Positions 29,611-34,091 of a stretch of 34,091 nt of DNA are shown piece after piece. The notes beneath the pieces were generated by a model, which was not told the DNA's origin, searched no databases, and saw only the letters and a program-made list of their open reading frames with translations. The number at the start of each line of letters is the position of its first letter. The stretch's first letter is position 1. Source of the DNA: an uncultured bacterium (GTDB taxonomy: Bacteria > Patescibacteriota > Minisyncoccia > Minisyncoccales > Minisyncoccaceae); NCBI GenBank assembly GCA_937870835.1, contig CALMWW010000140.1:1-34091 (forward strand). The letters run 5' to 3'. A program made the translations under genes and the position numbers.

Positions 29611-32310
29611 CTATCTTACCACACTACTAATCATTTTTTCTGGTTTATTACAGCAAAAAATCTTCTTCTTGGAAAATTCGATTAATATAATTTCGACTAA
29701 ACTGATGCTAAAAATAATCATCCATTGCGTTAAGCTTAATGGCTGAGTGTTTAATATTTTCTGAAATGGCGGTAAGTAGATTGAGGCTATGAGCAAAAGA
29801 AAGGCTATAAATACCGCTCCCACTAAGTAACGATTTGAAAAGATATCTTTTCTGAAAATTGTTCTTTCAAAGGATCGAACGCTAAATGCAAAGAAAAGAG
29901 AATCAAGGCACATTAAAGCAAATATTATAGTTCGGGCGAGATTTAAGTCATCAGTTAATTCCCAAAGAATAAAGAAAGAGGAAAATGCGGCCATGCCAGT
30001 GATGAAAAATATAGCAGCCATCCACTTCTTTAGGGAATTATTTAATATCGGCTCTTTAGGATTCCTGGGTTTTTCATCCATCACCCCTTTTGTTTCTTGC
30101 TCGGTTGTTAAAGCAATATCCGGTAATCCATCTTCGATAAGGTTTATCCAAAGAATCTGGGCAGGAAGCAACGGGAGCGGCAAACCCATTACCATGCTCG
30201 CCAAGAACAAGAACAATTCTGAAAAATCATCCGCAACTAAATACACAAAGACCTTGCGGATATTTTGAAAAATAACCCTGCCCTGTTCTATTGCCTTCAG
30301 TATCGTCTTGAAGTTATCGTCTATGAGTACCAAATCAGCCACCTCTTTTGCCACGTCAGTTCCTGAGCCGACCACTACTCCAATGTCTGCTGATTTAAGA
30401 GCTGGAGCATCATTTACGCCATCGCCGAGCATAGCCACTACTTCGCCATTTGCCTGGAGTGCGTCGACAATTCGCAATTTATGCTTTGGAGAAACACGAG
30501 CATAAATAGATATTTGCTTTGACCTCTCTCTTAATTCATCATCTGTTATAACTTCCAGTTCTTTCCCTTCGATGATATTTTCTTCTTGTACGTCAATGCC
30601 AATTTCTTCGGCAATAGCTTTGGCGGTAAATTTGTGATCGCCAGTGACAATAACCGTGCGGATGCCTGCTTTTTTAGTAATTAAAATTGATTCTTTAGCA
30701 TCTTTACGAAGTGGATCTTTAAAGGCAATAAAACCAACAAGCGAAAGGTCTTTTACTAATTCTGCAAGGTTTTGGTATTTTATATCAGCTTCATAATTTT
30801 TGTAAGCGCAAGCGAGAACCCGTAACCCCTTTTTTGTAAGCGATTCTACTTTACCGATGAATTTATCTGCTTCAGCCGTACCTAATTTCTTTTTTTCGCC
30901 GTCAACATCTATGTCCACGGAGCGGGCTATAACTACTTCCGGTGCACCTATAACGTAAAGCATATTTTGACTTTCGTTTTTGCGGTGAAAAGTGGCGGCA
31001 AATTTAACATCCGATTCAAAGCTAATTCTGTCCAACACCGGATATTGTTTTTCAAGCTCGTATTTGTTTAATCCAGATTGCATGCCCGCTAAAAGCAAAG
31101 CTTTTTCCGTTGGTCTGCCTCGAACTACCCACTCCTGTAATTCTGCTTCTGGATTTTCAACAAAAGCTTCGTTTGTCAATGTGGCAATTTTTAATATAGA
31201 AATATGAGATTCAACGCCATTGGAATTTTCGCCCTTAGCAAGCCCCTTAATACTATCCCCCATCAATTCTCTGGTGCTCGTCAAAACATGACTTACCTGC
31301 ATTTTGCCTTCAGTAAGAGTTCCAGTTTTGTCTGTACAGATAACAGTTACACTTCCTAGGGTTTCAGTGGCAGCAAGCTTTCTGACAAGACCATTTTGTT
31401 TAAAAATGCGTCTCATCCCCAAAACCAGAATAACAGTAATTGCAGGAAGCAGTCCTTCTGGTATTGCTGAAACCGCCAGGGCTAATGAGGCAACAAAAAC
31501 ATCAGCAAAGCTCTTTTGAGTAAAATATCCTTCGACGAGAATAATAGCGATAATTGATAGAATAAAAATACCGAGCCATTTTGAAAGCGAAACGATTTGC
31601 CGTTGAAGCGGCGTTTTGTCTTCTTTAGTTTCTTTAAGAAGTGAAACGATTTCGCCGATCTGCGTATTAATGCCAGTGGCGACAATAAGAATTATTCCCC
31701 ACCCTTCTTCCACAATCGTGCCCATAAAAGCCATATTTACTCTTTCTGAAAGGGGCGTAGATTCTGGCAAAGTATCTAATGCTTTCTTTTCTATGGCTTG
31801 TGGCTCTCCGGTAAGGCTCGCTTCGTTAATCCTGAGCCCTTTTGATTGAATAATGCGCCCGTCTGCTGGCACCTTGTCTCCCGCCCTGAGTATTACTATG
31901 TCGCCAACAACCAATTCCTCACTGTCAATTTCTTTTTCATGGCCATCGCGTAAGACTTTTGCCATAATCTTCACCATTCTTTTTAAGGCAAGTAACGACT
32001 GGTTGGCCTTATTTTCTTGATAGAAACCTACCGTAGTATTGATTAATAATACAATTACAATGAAGATTGCGTCAGAGTAATTTTCAAGCAAAAACGAAAC
32101 CACAATTGCCACAAACAAAATATACATTAAGGGACTATTAAATTGATTCAAAAACAGCCGTATTTTTGAATACGGTTTTTCTTGGGGAAGAGTGTTATGG
32201 CCGAACTCCTTTAATCTTTGACTGGCTTCTGAATTAGTCAGCCCTTCTTTTCTGCTTTTTGTTTCGAAGAAAATATCTGCGAGTAAAATTGTGTGCCAAT
32301 TTTTCTGCAT
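29611..32310 (-). CDS. P-type cation-transporting ATPase (type II, Ca2+-like)
   Basis: This 899-aa protein is a complete P-type pump. The actuator TGEP is at 167-170, PEGL in helix M4 at 284-287, and the phosphorylated Asp in DKTGTLT is D327. The nucleotide domain follows, then MLGDGVNDAPALKSADIG. Helix M6 has WINLIEDGLPD, similar to the Ca2+ pump motif NLxTDGLPA but with Glu for Thr. No heavy-metal domain precedes it, which fits the SERCA/PMR1-like type II class. The ion is not proven. The gene looks more GC-rich in sampled stretches than its neighbours, suggesting transfer. Its -10 box ends 6 nt before the ATG. Confidence 0.94.
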   Translation of the reverse strand: MQKNWHTILLADIFFETKSRKEGLTNSEASQRLKEFGHNTLPQEKPYSKIRLFLNQFNSPLMYILFVAIVVSFLLENYSDAIFIVIVLLINTTVGFYQENKANQSLLALKRMVKIMAKVLRDGHEKEIDSEELVVGDIVILRAGDKVPADGRIIQSKGLRINEASLTGEPQAIEKKALDTLPESTPLSERVNMAFMGTIVEEGWGIILIVATGINTQIGEIVSLLKETKEDKTPLQRQIVSLSKWLGIFILSIIAIILVEGYFTQKSFADVFVASLALAVSAIPEGLLPAITVILVLGMRRIFKQNGLVRKLAATETLGSVTVICTDKTGTLTEGKMQVSHVLTSTRELMGDSIKGLAKGENSNGVESHISILKIATLTNEAFVENPEAELQEWVVRGRPTEKALLLAGMQSGLNKYELEKQYPVLDRISFESDVKFAATFHRKNESQNMLYVIGAPEVVIARSVDIDVDGEKKKLGTAEADKFIGKVESLTKKGLRVLACAYKNYEADIKYQNLAELVKDLSLVGFIAFKDPLRKDAKESILITKKAGIRTVIVTGDHKFTAKAIAEEIGIDVQEENIIEGKELEVITDDELRERSKQISIYARVSPKHKLRIVDALQANGEVVAMLGDGVNDAPALKSADIGVVVGSGTDVAKEVADLVLIDDNFKTILKAIEQGRVIFQNIRKVFVYLVADDFSELFLFLASMVMGLPLPLLPAQILWINLIEDGLPDIALTTEQETKGVMDEKPRNPKEPILNNSLKKWMAAIFFITGMAAFSSFFILWELTDDLNLARTIIFALMCLDSLFFAFSVRSFERTIFRKDIFSNRYLVGAVFIAFLLLIASIYLPPFQKILNTQPLSLTQWMIIFSISLVEIILIEFSKKKIFCCNKPEKMISSVVR

Positions 32311-32316
32311 ATATCT

Positions 32317-32345
32317 ATTTTATCAGAAAATCGCCTTTATGGCAA
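32317..32345 (-). promoter_or_regulatory. Promoter of the P-type ATPase (leaderless)
   Basis: On the minus strand, TTGCCA (32345-32340) and TAAAAT (32322-32317) are 17 nt apart. The -10 ends 6 nt before the ATG, so the message would begin at the start codon. Confidence 0.7.
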
Positions 32346-32371
32346 TTTTTGTCTGCTCCGGCGGTAGGATT

Positions 32372-32539
32372 CGCCTTTTGGTAATTTTCTACTGAAAATT
32401 CCTCAAGGCCGGGCTCAGGGCCCGTCGGCTCTCCACGTTCGAATCTATAAATATTGGTAGGATTCGCCTTCAAAAACTTTTGCTAAAATTTTTTCAGGCC
32501 CGGGTTTTCGCCAGTCGCGAAAACCCTTCGAATCCTGCC
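32372..32539. repeat. Two imperfect tandem copies of a hairpin-bearing module
   Basis: Each copy of about 85 nt starts with GGTAGGATTCGCCTT (at about 32372 and 32456). An A/T hairpin, a GGCC-GGG segment and TTCGAATC follow. Copy 1 has AATTTTC-TACT-GAAAATT (32383-32400). Copy 2 has the perfect 10-bp hairpin GGGTTTTCGC/GCGAAAACCC (32502-32526). In copy 2 the ends GGTAGGATTCG and CGAATCCTGCC pair over 11 bp with one wobble, enclosing the whole module. The local GC is well above the background. This may be a mobile REP-like element or a structured RNA. Confidence 0.65.
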
Positions 32540-32552
32540 CAATCAACCCAAA

Positions 32553-32599
32553 CCAAATAAAACACCCCCCCCCAGAGGTTCTAGGGGTGTCCTATTTGG
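32553..32599 (-). terminator. Large terminator-like hairpin with a C9 tract
   Basis: CCAAATA (32553-32559) pairs with TATTTGG (32593-32599), and ACACCCC (32562-32568) pairs with GGGGTGT (32584-32590), with a 2-nt internal loop. The plus strand holds a run of nine C. Read on the minus strand it ends in TTTTATTT, so it would end the unit that includes the two genes to the right. Confidence 0.75.
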
Positions 32600-32693
32600 C
32601 TCCCGTGTACGGTCCTGGACTATTTCTAGCCAATAACCGTAAAGGTTAATTAAATTATAATTTTGATATGTCGCACCGGAAACCGGTCAAATA

Positions 32694-33442
32694 TTATTTA
32701 AAAAATAAAGGAAAAAAATACTTTAAAGAAGCATAAACAATATACAAAACTATAAGAACTATAAAATAAACAAATGGCTTGTTTATAGAAAACCATCCTT
32801 CTTTTTTATCTTTTTCATTTATTTCTGCCTTATTTTTATCGCCGTGCTGTTCTATTTTATCTCCATTTATAATTTCTAGTTTTTCTATTCGTGGTAAACT
32901 ATTTAAAAATTCATTTCCTGAAGCATAGGTTCCTTCTCCTTCATCCTGAATTCCCACGTCTAAACCAATAAAATGATTATTGATAAATTTACTATCTTTC
33001 CCCCTATTTAAAATACCTATACTTTTTTTACTTTCTCATAGTGGTTCATTTTTATTTTGCAAATTTGGACCAAAACTTTCTTCTAATGACTTTTCTAAAT
33101 CTTCCAAAGAAATTCCCTTAACAATGTCAAAACTAATAAAATTATCATCAAGATCTATAGTTGCGCGTAATTTCTTATTTTCGCTATCAATTTTATTAAA
33201 TTGATCAAAAATAACTTTTTTTACGATATCTTTATGTTTTTTCCAAGAATAAACAAAACCATTAACATCTTCCACCTTCCAAGTCGGGGAAATGTGAATC
33301 AGTTGAAACTCTGTAAATATCTCCTTATGGTCAGGGTAAAATCTAATTTCTTTTAAATCGTATTTATTAAAAATATCTCTAACAAAAATAAAAATCCATA
33401 AAAATCAAAATTTCCATTAAATTTTCTCTTCAATAAAGCCAT
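32694..33442 (-). pseudogene. Broken gene for a 249-aa membrane-anchored protein (frameshift plus in-frame TGA)
   Basis: The ATG at 33442 lies 3 nt after the stop of the upstream gene. Translation from it reads MALLKRKFNGNFDFYGF and then hits a stop in that frame. One missing T near 33384-33394 (T5-A-T5 on the minus strand) would put it in the frame that continues IFVRDIFNKYDLKEIRFYP and onward. That frame runs to a TGA at 33036-33038 (after NKNEPL) and then stays open, with no frame change, to 32694. The C-terminus has one membrane helix (about the last 28 residues). 749 nt plus one base is exactly 250 codons. The TGA could be a mutated TGG. Function unknown. Confidence 0.75.
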
Positions 33443-33445
33443 AAA

Positions 33446-33991
33446 TTATCTTATATAATCTTCTTTTAGTTTTTTAATAATTTTTTTATAATTACTATCA
33501 TTTCTTGATTTATTAATTTTAGATAAAAATTTTTCCAATCTTTCTATTCCTGCTTCATTCTTAATAATTTCTTCAGTTTTCCCCCAATTTTTTATATATT
33601 TATCTTTGGCTTTGTCGTACTCCTTGCCAGACAAACTAGCTACTTTTTCTACACCAACAACGCTAAGAGCGCAGTGCAATCTAACATATTCATTAAGATA
33701 TAAAGTATTATCATCTAAATACTTGGAAACATCTAAAACAGTGGCGGTCCATTTTTTAAGTCTTTCGTCTTTGGTGCTTTCCTTATCATTCAATATTTCT
33801 ATTCCAAGATCATATGCTTTCTTCATTTTTTTGTATAAATTTTCATATATTTCAAGTTTTTTCTCAAACATTTTTTCTAAATATATAAAACGTTGGCGAC
33901 TATTATTAAGCCACTCGGTTAATAAAATACCTACGATAACGCCGACTGGTCCGGATAAAATGCTGATTATCTGTAATGTTTCTTGATTCAT
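33446..33991 (-). CDS. Membrane-anchored coiled-coil protein of unknown function
   Basis: This 181-aa protein has one membrane helix near residues 8-26 (IISILSGPVGVIVGILL) and then a long charged, helical region with heptad-like spacing (RFIYLEKMFEKKLEIYENL and onward). The topology is a short outside tail, a membrane helix and a cytoplasmic coiled coil. No catalytic motif is seen. It is the first gene of a two-gene unit with the broken gene, whose ATG follows by 3 nt. A small hairpin lies 15 nt upstream of its start. The family is not recognised. The unit resembles accessory modules rather than housekeeping DNA. Confidence 0.7.
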   Translation of the reverse strand: MNQETLQIISILSGPVGVIVGILLTEWLNNSRQRFIYLEKMFEKKLEIYENLYKKMKKAYDLGIEILNDKESTKDERLKKWTATVLDVSKYLDDNTLYLNEYVRLHCALSVVGVEKVASLSGKEYDKAKDKYIKNWGKTEEIIKNEAGIERLEKFLSKINKSRNDSNYKKIIKKLKEDYIR

Positions 33992-34023: not shown

Positions 34024-34091
34024 CCTTGGTTATTGAACTATTTATTTTTTGACCGGTAACCGGTCTCTCGATAATTTTCATACTGGCTCCG

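Follow-up and report, generated by a model that had tools for sequence, protein, structure and literature searches.

Forked repeats behind tRNA genes of a Patescibacteria genome carry arms that follow the tRNA they serve

The two neighbouring hairpins near the end of the window are forked repeats that are anchored at tRNA genes and whose closing arms track the sequence of the tRNA they stand behind; we hold this description with high confidence. Here the window is the whole stretch analysed, that is, all 34,091 bases of contig C140 in an 822-kb assembly of 158 contigs (hereafter the own genome, G000). How such repeats arise is a further question. At about even odds, we propose that they are the folded, att-like ends of cassettes that would integrate at the T-loops of tRNA genes and restore the tRNA.

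Both modules are placed on the minus strand. Module 1 (32363-32449) is closed by just 6 Watson-Crick pairs, 32368-32373 with 32440-32445, and contains a hairpin at about 32374-32408 and a GC hairpin at about 32410-32424. Module 2 (32456-32540) is closed by 11 pairs, one of them T-G, between 32456-32466 and 32529-32539; inside lie an A/T hairpin and a perfect 10-bp GC hairpin (32502-32526), in which GGGTTTTCGC pairs with GCGAAAACCC (32502-32511 with 32517-32526). The closing stem and the perfect hairpin of the second copy had both been described in an earlier note made from the sequence alone, and they stand. The same holds for the common 15-nt start, GGTAGGATTCGCCTT, found at 32363-32377 and 32456-32470, and for a GC content above that of the surroundings (0.51 in 32356-32457 versus 0.354 in 32001-33000). 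The note had spoken of two copies of an 85-nt unit: two copies are indeed present, but their period is 93 nt and the first begins 9 nt earlier than described. On either strand, both modules out-fold 200 of 200 dinucleotide shuffles, with z-scores for the two strands of -6.05 and -5.62 for module 2 and -3.39 and -3.71 for module 1. A terminator-like hairpin (32553-32599, from the fold of 32553-32700) separates them from the cargo described below.

The outer arm of module 1 reveals its origin. Positions 32355-32373 are the reverse complement of the 3' end of tRNA-Asn(gtt), a 19-nt exact copy from C56 onward on the minus strand. This explains why the closing stem had been likened to a tRNA acceptor that forms no tRNA fold: the sequence likeness is real, and ARAGORN calls no tRNA at the modules. 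The closing stem is made of two inverted copies of tRNA T-loop, T-stem and partly acceptor sequence. The inner arm of window module 1 matches its tRNA over 6 nt only. A search with GGTAGGATTCG pointed to the end of contig C86, where a tRNA-Asn gene lies; the last 34 nt of the window (34058-34091) are identical to that contig end, beside tRNA-Asn, from which we infer that the two contigs join. If the join is right, tRNA-Asn is followed by a segment of about 1.7 kb that has the modules at its far end, and about 1.5 kb of it is cargo placed between the gene and the modules. The opposite end of the window is of a similar kind: the contig starts at the 3' end of a tRNA-Thr(cgt) gene (2-74). Several contig ends of the assembly fall at tRNA tails or modules, which the repetitive nature of the units probably explains.

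The hairpins have many relatives. With a covariance model built from 14 modules (R1), window modules 1 and 2 score E-values of 1.3e-11 and 7.1e-8, and the own genome holds 15 matches at E≤1, 13 of them at or below 1.1e-6. Ten of these 13 stand behind a tRNA gene on the same contig, serving Thr-tgt, Ser-tga (2), Ser-gct, Glu-ttc, Leu-caa, Gln-ttg, Lys-ctt (2) and Arg-tcg; two are the window's, and the last, at a contig start, has a Gln-type tail. Of 247 genomes of the order, 4 have modules at E 1e-4 according to a second model, R2 (trained on 23 modules, among them own-genome copies and one of G001): 13 in the own genome, 14 in G001 of the same genus, 16 in G503 of the same family and another genus, and 2 weak ones in G384. 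The 13 strong matches of either model in the own genome are different sets, since R2 does not recover window module 2 and picks up another copy, at the start of contig C55. Each tandem copy counts as one throughout.

Linkage to tRNA genes could be assessed most fully in G001, where 658,370 bases with 41 tRNA genes were covered, nearly the whole of a genome that is 81% complete. Nineteen of its 20 matches (E≤1) have a tRNA gene 11-196 bp upstream on the expected strand, the only strand on which tRNAs were sought; the 200-bp stretches behind all 41 tRNAs make up about 1% of the genome. The twentieth match, at C2:122486, carries the tail CGAATCCTACCACCGGAG of a tRNA-Asn lying 12,554 bp upstream. 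For G503, 15 of the 16 matches were fetched: 14 stand behind a tRNA called by ARAGORN and one behind a broken tRNA-like stretch. At about 820-980 of locus L217 (G503 C5), a module is preceded by a sequence that resembles tRNA-Arg, has an insert in its anticodon region and is not called by ARAGORN; it may be a pseudogene or carry an intron.

Other carriers among the matches listed are three Clostridia/Clostridiales, three further Patescibacteria and one other bacterial genome. A model search of these seven genomes gave 15 matches, six of them beyond the seeds; four of the six stand behind tRNAs (Ser-gct, Arg-acg, Ser-cga and Glu-ctc) and two close to contig ends, in stretches where no tRNA is called. 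The seeds from other genomes were drawn from at least 28 pattern matches that do not overlap tRNAs (two of them, L020 and L133, being one place), and were chosen partly for a nearby tRNA, so that their link to tRNAs is not independent. Independent tests of linkage are thus the model matches in the own genome, G001 and G503, together with the extra matches in the seven other genomes. Altogether, modules stand behind tRNA genes and in a single orientation.

That the window merely holds two unrelated hairpins, a local accident, has a negligible probability. The interiors of the two copies do mostly differ, as an accident would have it. Against this, 12 of the 13 strong copies in the own genome are tied to a tRNA gene (the window's two through the inferred contig join), and the closing stem covaries, as detailed next. 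The earlier note had reserved the accidental reading for the case that neither further copies nor covariation turned up; both did, and its dispersed, structured repeat is borne out.

Read in tRNA sense, which is the minus strand in the window, a module consists of an inverted copy of the T-arm, two hairpins and a direct copy of the same tRNA's 3' end from C56. Both copies change with the tRNA. Behind tRNA-Glu the tail is CGATTCCC and the inner arm GGGAATCG; behind Leu, CAAGTCCC and GGGACTTG; behind Lys, CGAGCCC and GGGCTCG; behind Pro, AATTCCC and GGGAATT; and behind Ser, CGAATCTCC and GGAGATTCG. We quantified this on 52 hand-listed modules, a list that omits L205 847-984 and L253 and adds window module 2, the second L203 module and a further L202 module. 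Four were dropped (one whose contig has no tRNA, two that are second units at a distance above 600 bp and one behind a tRNA not called by ARAGORN), leaving 48. The outer arm matches its own tRNA tail over a mean of 13.1 nt, compared with 4.6 for shuffled tails (maximum of 500 shuffles, 5.7), and the inner arm matches its own tRNA over 8.7 nt, compared with 3.9 (maximum, 4.65). Counted by exact prefix, outer arms reach at least 17 nt in only 21 of the 48 modules, 7-12 nt in 18 and less than 7 nt in 7.

Covariation points the same way. In a 51-row alignment, 88.8% of the closing-stem cells are paired and 89 cells are changed on both sides, versus 74.6% and 23.7 in shuffles and at most 59.4% and 33 in slid versions; two of five covariation measures, pairs with a double change and further pair types, are not clearly above shuffles (42 and 365 of 500). 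As this alignment was fitted to the structure, the alignment-free test on 48 modules is the cleaner one. Some inner arms, in L202, L218, L220 and at E. coli tyrT (L242), read GGA(C/T)GAGAAG, which is not the exact complement; in the first three loci this would replace two pairs by tandem G-A mismatches.

Such behaviour is hard to reconcile with the REP-like or MITE-like element that the earlier note had suggested. As REP/REPIN or MITE-like elements, moved by a Y1 (RAYT/IS200-like) transposase, the modules would share the many short, palindromic, extragenic copies of that group. In the usual sense of the term the label is not supported: the copies are not scattered extragenic palindromes but lie behind tRNA genes in one orientation, and insertion at such sites with target-following arms is not REP behaviour. 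Moreover, the Y1 family PF01797 matches in one of eight genomes (one match, in G001); the own genome (95% complete) and G503 (89%), two of the three carrier genomes, gave no match. We consider this explanation very improbable.

We also asked of the sequences in which form the fork is folded. Across 37 modules compared at identities of 0.70-0.97, changes at paired fork positions are 416 compensatory, 64 G-U, 62 A-C and 197 other; the same script applied to 71 tRNAs as a control gives 235, 90, 36 and 127, and a direct count in tRNA stems gives 36 G-U versus 1 A-C. At a looser identity cut of 0.60-0.97 the figures are 668, 143, 194 and 629 for modules and 1,097, 492, 318 and 1,266 for tRNAs, while a run with 41 modules yielded 496, 82, 89 and 242. 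In all of these counts the fork change events are not independent of each other. In tRNA sense, the inner seven pairs of the closing stem comprise 330 Watson-Crick, 2 G-U, 6 A-C and 6 other cells, and the four outer pairs 110, 10, 31 and 42. At the outer pairs G-U is commoner on the strand opposite the tRNA (31 versus 10), which could come from composition or from an RNA. Since fork changes are mostly compensatory and show no G-U excess, they suggest folded DNA rather than RNA, and the fork and closing-stem counts together give no sign of selection on an RNA of the tRNA sense.

These counts bear on a rival that we judge unlikely: that the modules are structured RNAs, RtT-like and made from tRNA operons, which an RNA function would maintain while local duplication and gene conversion raise their number. 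In its favour is the E. coli tyrT/tyrV array (L242; annotated RttR and tpr), where a locus with an annotated small RNA has the same layout. There, tyrV is followed by three tandem units, and a related unit separates tyrT from tyrV, each with an inverted arm beginning GGGGAAGG and a direct tail AATCCTTCCCCCACCACCA; both unit types have a 10-bp closing stem in tRNA sense and several hairpins inside. In 3.5 kb, R1 ranks the three RtT units first, albeit at E 0.05-0.12 only, and the hairpins and loops of the forks look conserved by eye within the own genome, G001 and G503. On the other side stand the lack of a G-U excess over A-C in fork stems (64:62, or 143:194 at the looser cut) compared with tRNAs (90:36, or 492:318), the hairpin, often terminator-like, that usually parts the tRNA from the module, and the cargo found between them in some units, which this rival does not lead one to expect.

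The modules share their layout with the E. coli tyrT/RtT repeats. Both have tandem units behind a tRNA gene, each starting with an inverted and ending with a direct copy of its 3' end; in E. coli, strains differ in how many units they have, and there are sites precisely free of units. The E. coli unit was matched in 4,680 of 5,426 E. coli genomes, at 1-9 places each. Among the matches listed, some genomes have an exact unit-free tRNA-Tyr junction (166 of 166 bases in one piece) and others have one or three annotated RtT units at that junction. Such a junction shows where the unit ends; by itself it does not tell excision from homologous deletion. In a phage collection the unit appears in 1 of 50,697 records, a 515-kb Salmonella sequence annotated with RtT RNA. 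Unlike the window's relatives, which serve many tRNA types with arms tracking each, usually have hairpins before the module and can carry cargo, E. coli units were seen at tRNA-Tyr only and are annotated as RNA. No RtT match reaches the Rfam gathering score in the window. In the part of the open-access literature that our search covered, nothing describes tRNA-anchored folded repeats or reads RtT in that way.

The anatomy of whole units speaks to their turnover. In tRNA sense, a unit runs from the tRNA 3' end at C56 through a spacer, the inverted arm and the two hairpins to the next copy from C56 onward, and mostly measures about 150 bp. The spacer is usually 33-60 bp long, and 25 of the 32 spacers of 15-70 bp contain a hairpin stem of at least 9 bp, often terminator-like. 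Among the 20 full copies (outer copy of at least 17 nt), the flank behind the tRNA differs from that behind the module in 13 (fewer than 18 of 25 positions alike), which suggests that tRNA end and flank both arrived with the unit. In the other seven the flanks are alike, as expected of tandem units, and this also fits tandem duplication. Forks 0.87-0.92 identical recur at different tRNAs in different genomes: window module 2 resembles the G001 Ser-tga fork at 0.92, the G503 Thr fork that of G001 Val at 0.92, and the G503 Leu fork that of G001 Gln at 0.91. The Ser-tga/Ser-gct tandem pair carries 2 + 1 units in the own genome and, in G001, 1 of another type + 0.

The same data weigh on a reading without mobility, to which we assign a low probability. 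Slipped replication would duplicate the tRNA 3' end with its flank, template switching would perfect the inverted arm, and the forks would be by-products. The seven copies with alike flanks and the tandem units at the own-genome Ser-tga and Lys-ctt genes agree with it; furthermore, template switching can perfect palindromes, and this would likewise yield strict Watson-Crick pairing. It is at odds with the 13 copies whose flanks differ and with similar forks at different tRNAs and in different genera. Besides, a mere by-product would not be expected to retain its forked shape in several phyla, where the majority of predicted folds, though not every one, have two clear hairpins.

In the cassette reading that we favour, each module would be the far end of a small integrating cassette whose recombination point in the tRNA gene is C56 of the T-loop. 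The cassette would bring along a substitute for the tRNA 3' end, in most cases joined to a strong hairpin or terminator and at times to cargo, and the displaced old tRNA end would be left beside the cassette's own folded end. This folded end could offer the recombination site as the double-stranded stem of one DNA strand, as integron attC or CTXphi attP does. A site carried in this form would explain why both arms track the tRNA. After a jump, the arms may be re-matched by template-switch repair of the palindrome. In favour of this reading are the link to tRNA genes, the arms that follow each tRNA, the 13 copies with differing flanks, the recurrence of similar forks at different tRNAs, the cargo, the compensatory fork changes and the unit-free tRNA-Tyr site of some E. 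coli strains. Against it count that no candidate recombinase tracks the modules, that no viral contig with the fork motif yielded a module, the seven copies with alike flanks, the short exact matches of many outer arms, the G-U counts at the outer closing-stem pairs and the short inner match of window module 1.

Known systems share parts of this design. Integron attC sites have conserved inverted ends and a variable folded interior, each cassette being followed by its site in an array behind a fixed anchor. Modules resemble them in their ends, interior and anchored arrays, and in cassettes that each come with a folded site (at L135, two units, the second with cargo). They differ in that the anchor is a tRNA T-loop, not attI, and that the arms, read directly, are GGATTCG/CGAATCC and tRNA-matched variants without the integron R-box consensus, GTTRRRY/RYYYAAC. 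In CTXphi attP(+), two inverted target copies about 80-90 nt apart close a forked hairpin, much as in the modules, whose target is the tRNA T-arm instead of dif and most copies of which have no phage genes seen beside them. tRNA-targeting genomic islands likewise leave a direct 3'-end repeat (here the outer matches of at least 17 nt), an intact tRNA and cargo in between; unlike such islands, units are mostly short and the far end is structured, with an inner arm that also tracks the tRNA. Among the cargo proteins searched in the window and L135 no integrase was found, and the G001 Asn island carries a serine recombinase. Two Rfam families, sX4 and ncS011, were set aside as sub-threshold matches at one Clostridiales locus, that of sX4 lying largely on the tRNA itself. 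Six matches of the fork motif in viral contigs were likewise discarded: none is a module by the model, and by eye they look like coding sequence. A pattern scan of 16 viral contigs left five matches off called tRNAs, by eye four coding-like and one (L147) tRNA-end-like.

Neither tyrosine recombinases nor Y1 transposases nor reverse transcriptases track the modules across genomes. Of 21 family genomes, 17 have a member of the tyrosine recombinase family PF00589; none was found in G001, with its 14 modules and 81% completeness. The own genome has two PF00589 proteins over the cut-off and a partial match. Both proteins fall below the cut-off of the integron integrase model TIGR02249, the better candidate (on C30) reaching 223 bits against a cut-off of 265; it passes the cut-off of NF040815, a broad model for "site-specific tyrosine recombinase/integron integrase". 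In G503, the PF00589 protein is 79% identical to the Xer-like protein of C151. An integron-like system with a dedicated tyrosine recombinase was therefore rejected as the whole answer, PF00589 not tracking the modules. A reverse transcriptase mechanism, suggested by a gene in the G001 island described below, was dropped as well: the own genome has no match, and 11 of 18 module-free family genomes have one. The recombinase of the proposed cassettes perhaps acts in trans or was lost. On C30 (L179, 1-883), the end of the tyrosine recombinase gene (minus strand, 270 aa) comes 16 bp after the 3' part of a tRNA, by eye Arg(cct), and ORFs that by eye resemble a type III restriction-modification pair follow; it is a tRNA-linked island without a module.

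More tentatively, and with less than even confidence, we suggest that the repeats form a separate class of tRNA-anchored cassettes in Patescibacteria, Clostridia and probably E. coli (the RtT arrays), which would insert at C56 of many tRNA genes via a folded single-stranded DNA site, with arms copied from or re-matched to the target. If so, repeats that currently bear a small-RNA annotation would be traces of a recombination machinery not yet recognised. The repeated tRNA 3' ends behind E. coli tyrT and the hairpins behind tRNA genes in other phyla would then have a joint explanation, and a precise prediction would follow, namely that recombination takes place at C56 and proceeds via a folded strand with arms that match the tRNA. 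The modules would also mark sites of cargo uptake in small genomes such as those of Patescibacteria.

Most units have no cargo; it was seen between tRNA and module at the window, in G001 and at L135, whose second unit holds 1.6 kb including a CHAP-domain protein and an HTH_3 protein. The G001 Asn island (L284 2829-14923, G001 C2) has 12.5 kb of cargo between tRNA-Asn and the module. Its genes include a reverse transcriptase with a trypsin-like domain (a match to the PADLOC type XI RT-protease model), a serine recombinase, a ParB/methylase, a LexA/S24 protein, a match to the PADLOC "E2" model and others; a tyrosine recombinase is absent. In the window, the cargo comprises on the minus strand an ORF of 181 aa (33446-33991), with a hydrophobic start by eye and no confident Pfam, PADLOC or PHROG family, and a reading frame at 32694-33275, interrupted by an in-frame TGA into pieces at 33036-33275 and 32694-32957 and also without a confident family. 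Recoding is less likely here than gene decay, as the long ATPase ORF next to it is read without interruption under table 11.

The distal end of the window's cargo resembles that of the G001 island. The stretches before the module align with 132 of 209 bases identical overall and 71 of 100 in the best block (32591-32690, minus strand), at a score of 42 where the best of 500 shuffles reaches -2. No Rfam family matches this block at the gathering score. In both Asn segments the module is preceded by a conserved block, TTAACC-TTACGGTTATTG...GACCGTACACGGGAGCCAAA (32591-32690 in the window, within 2582-2800 in L284), which could be a small RNA or a DNA site.
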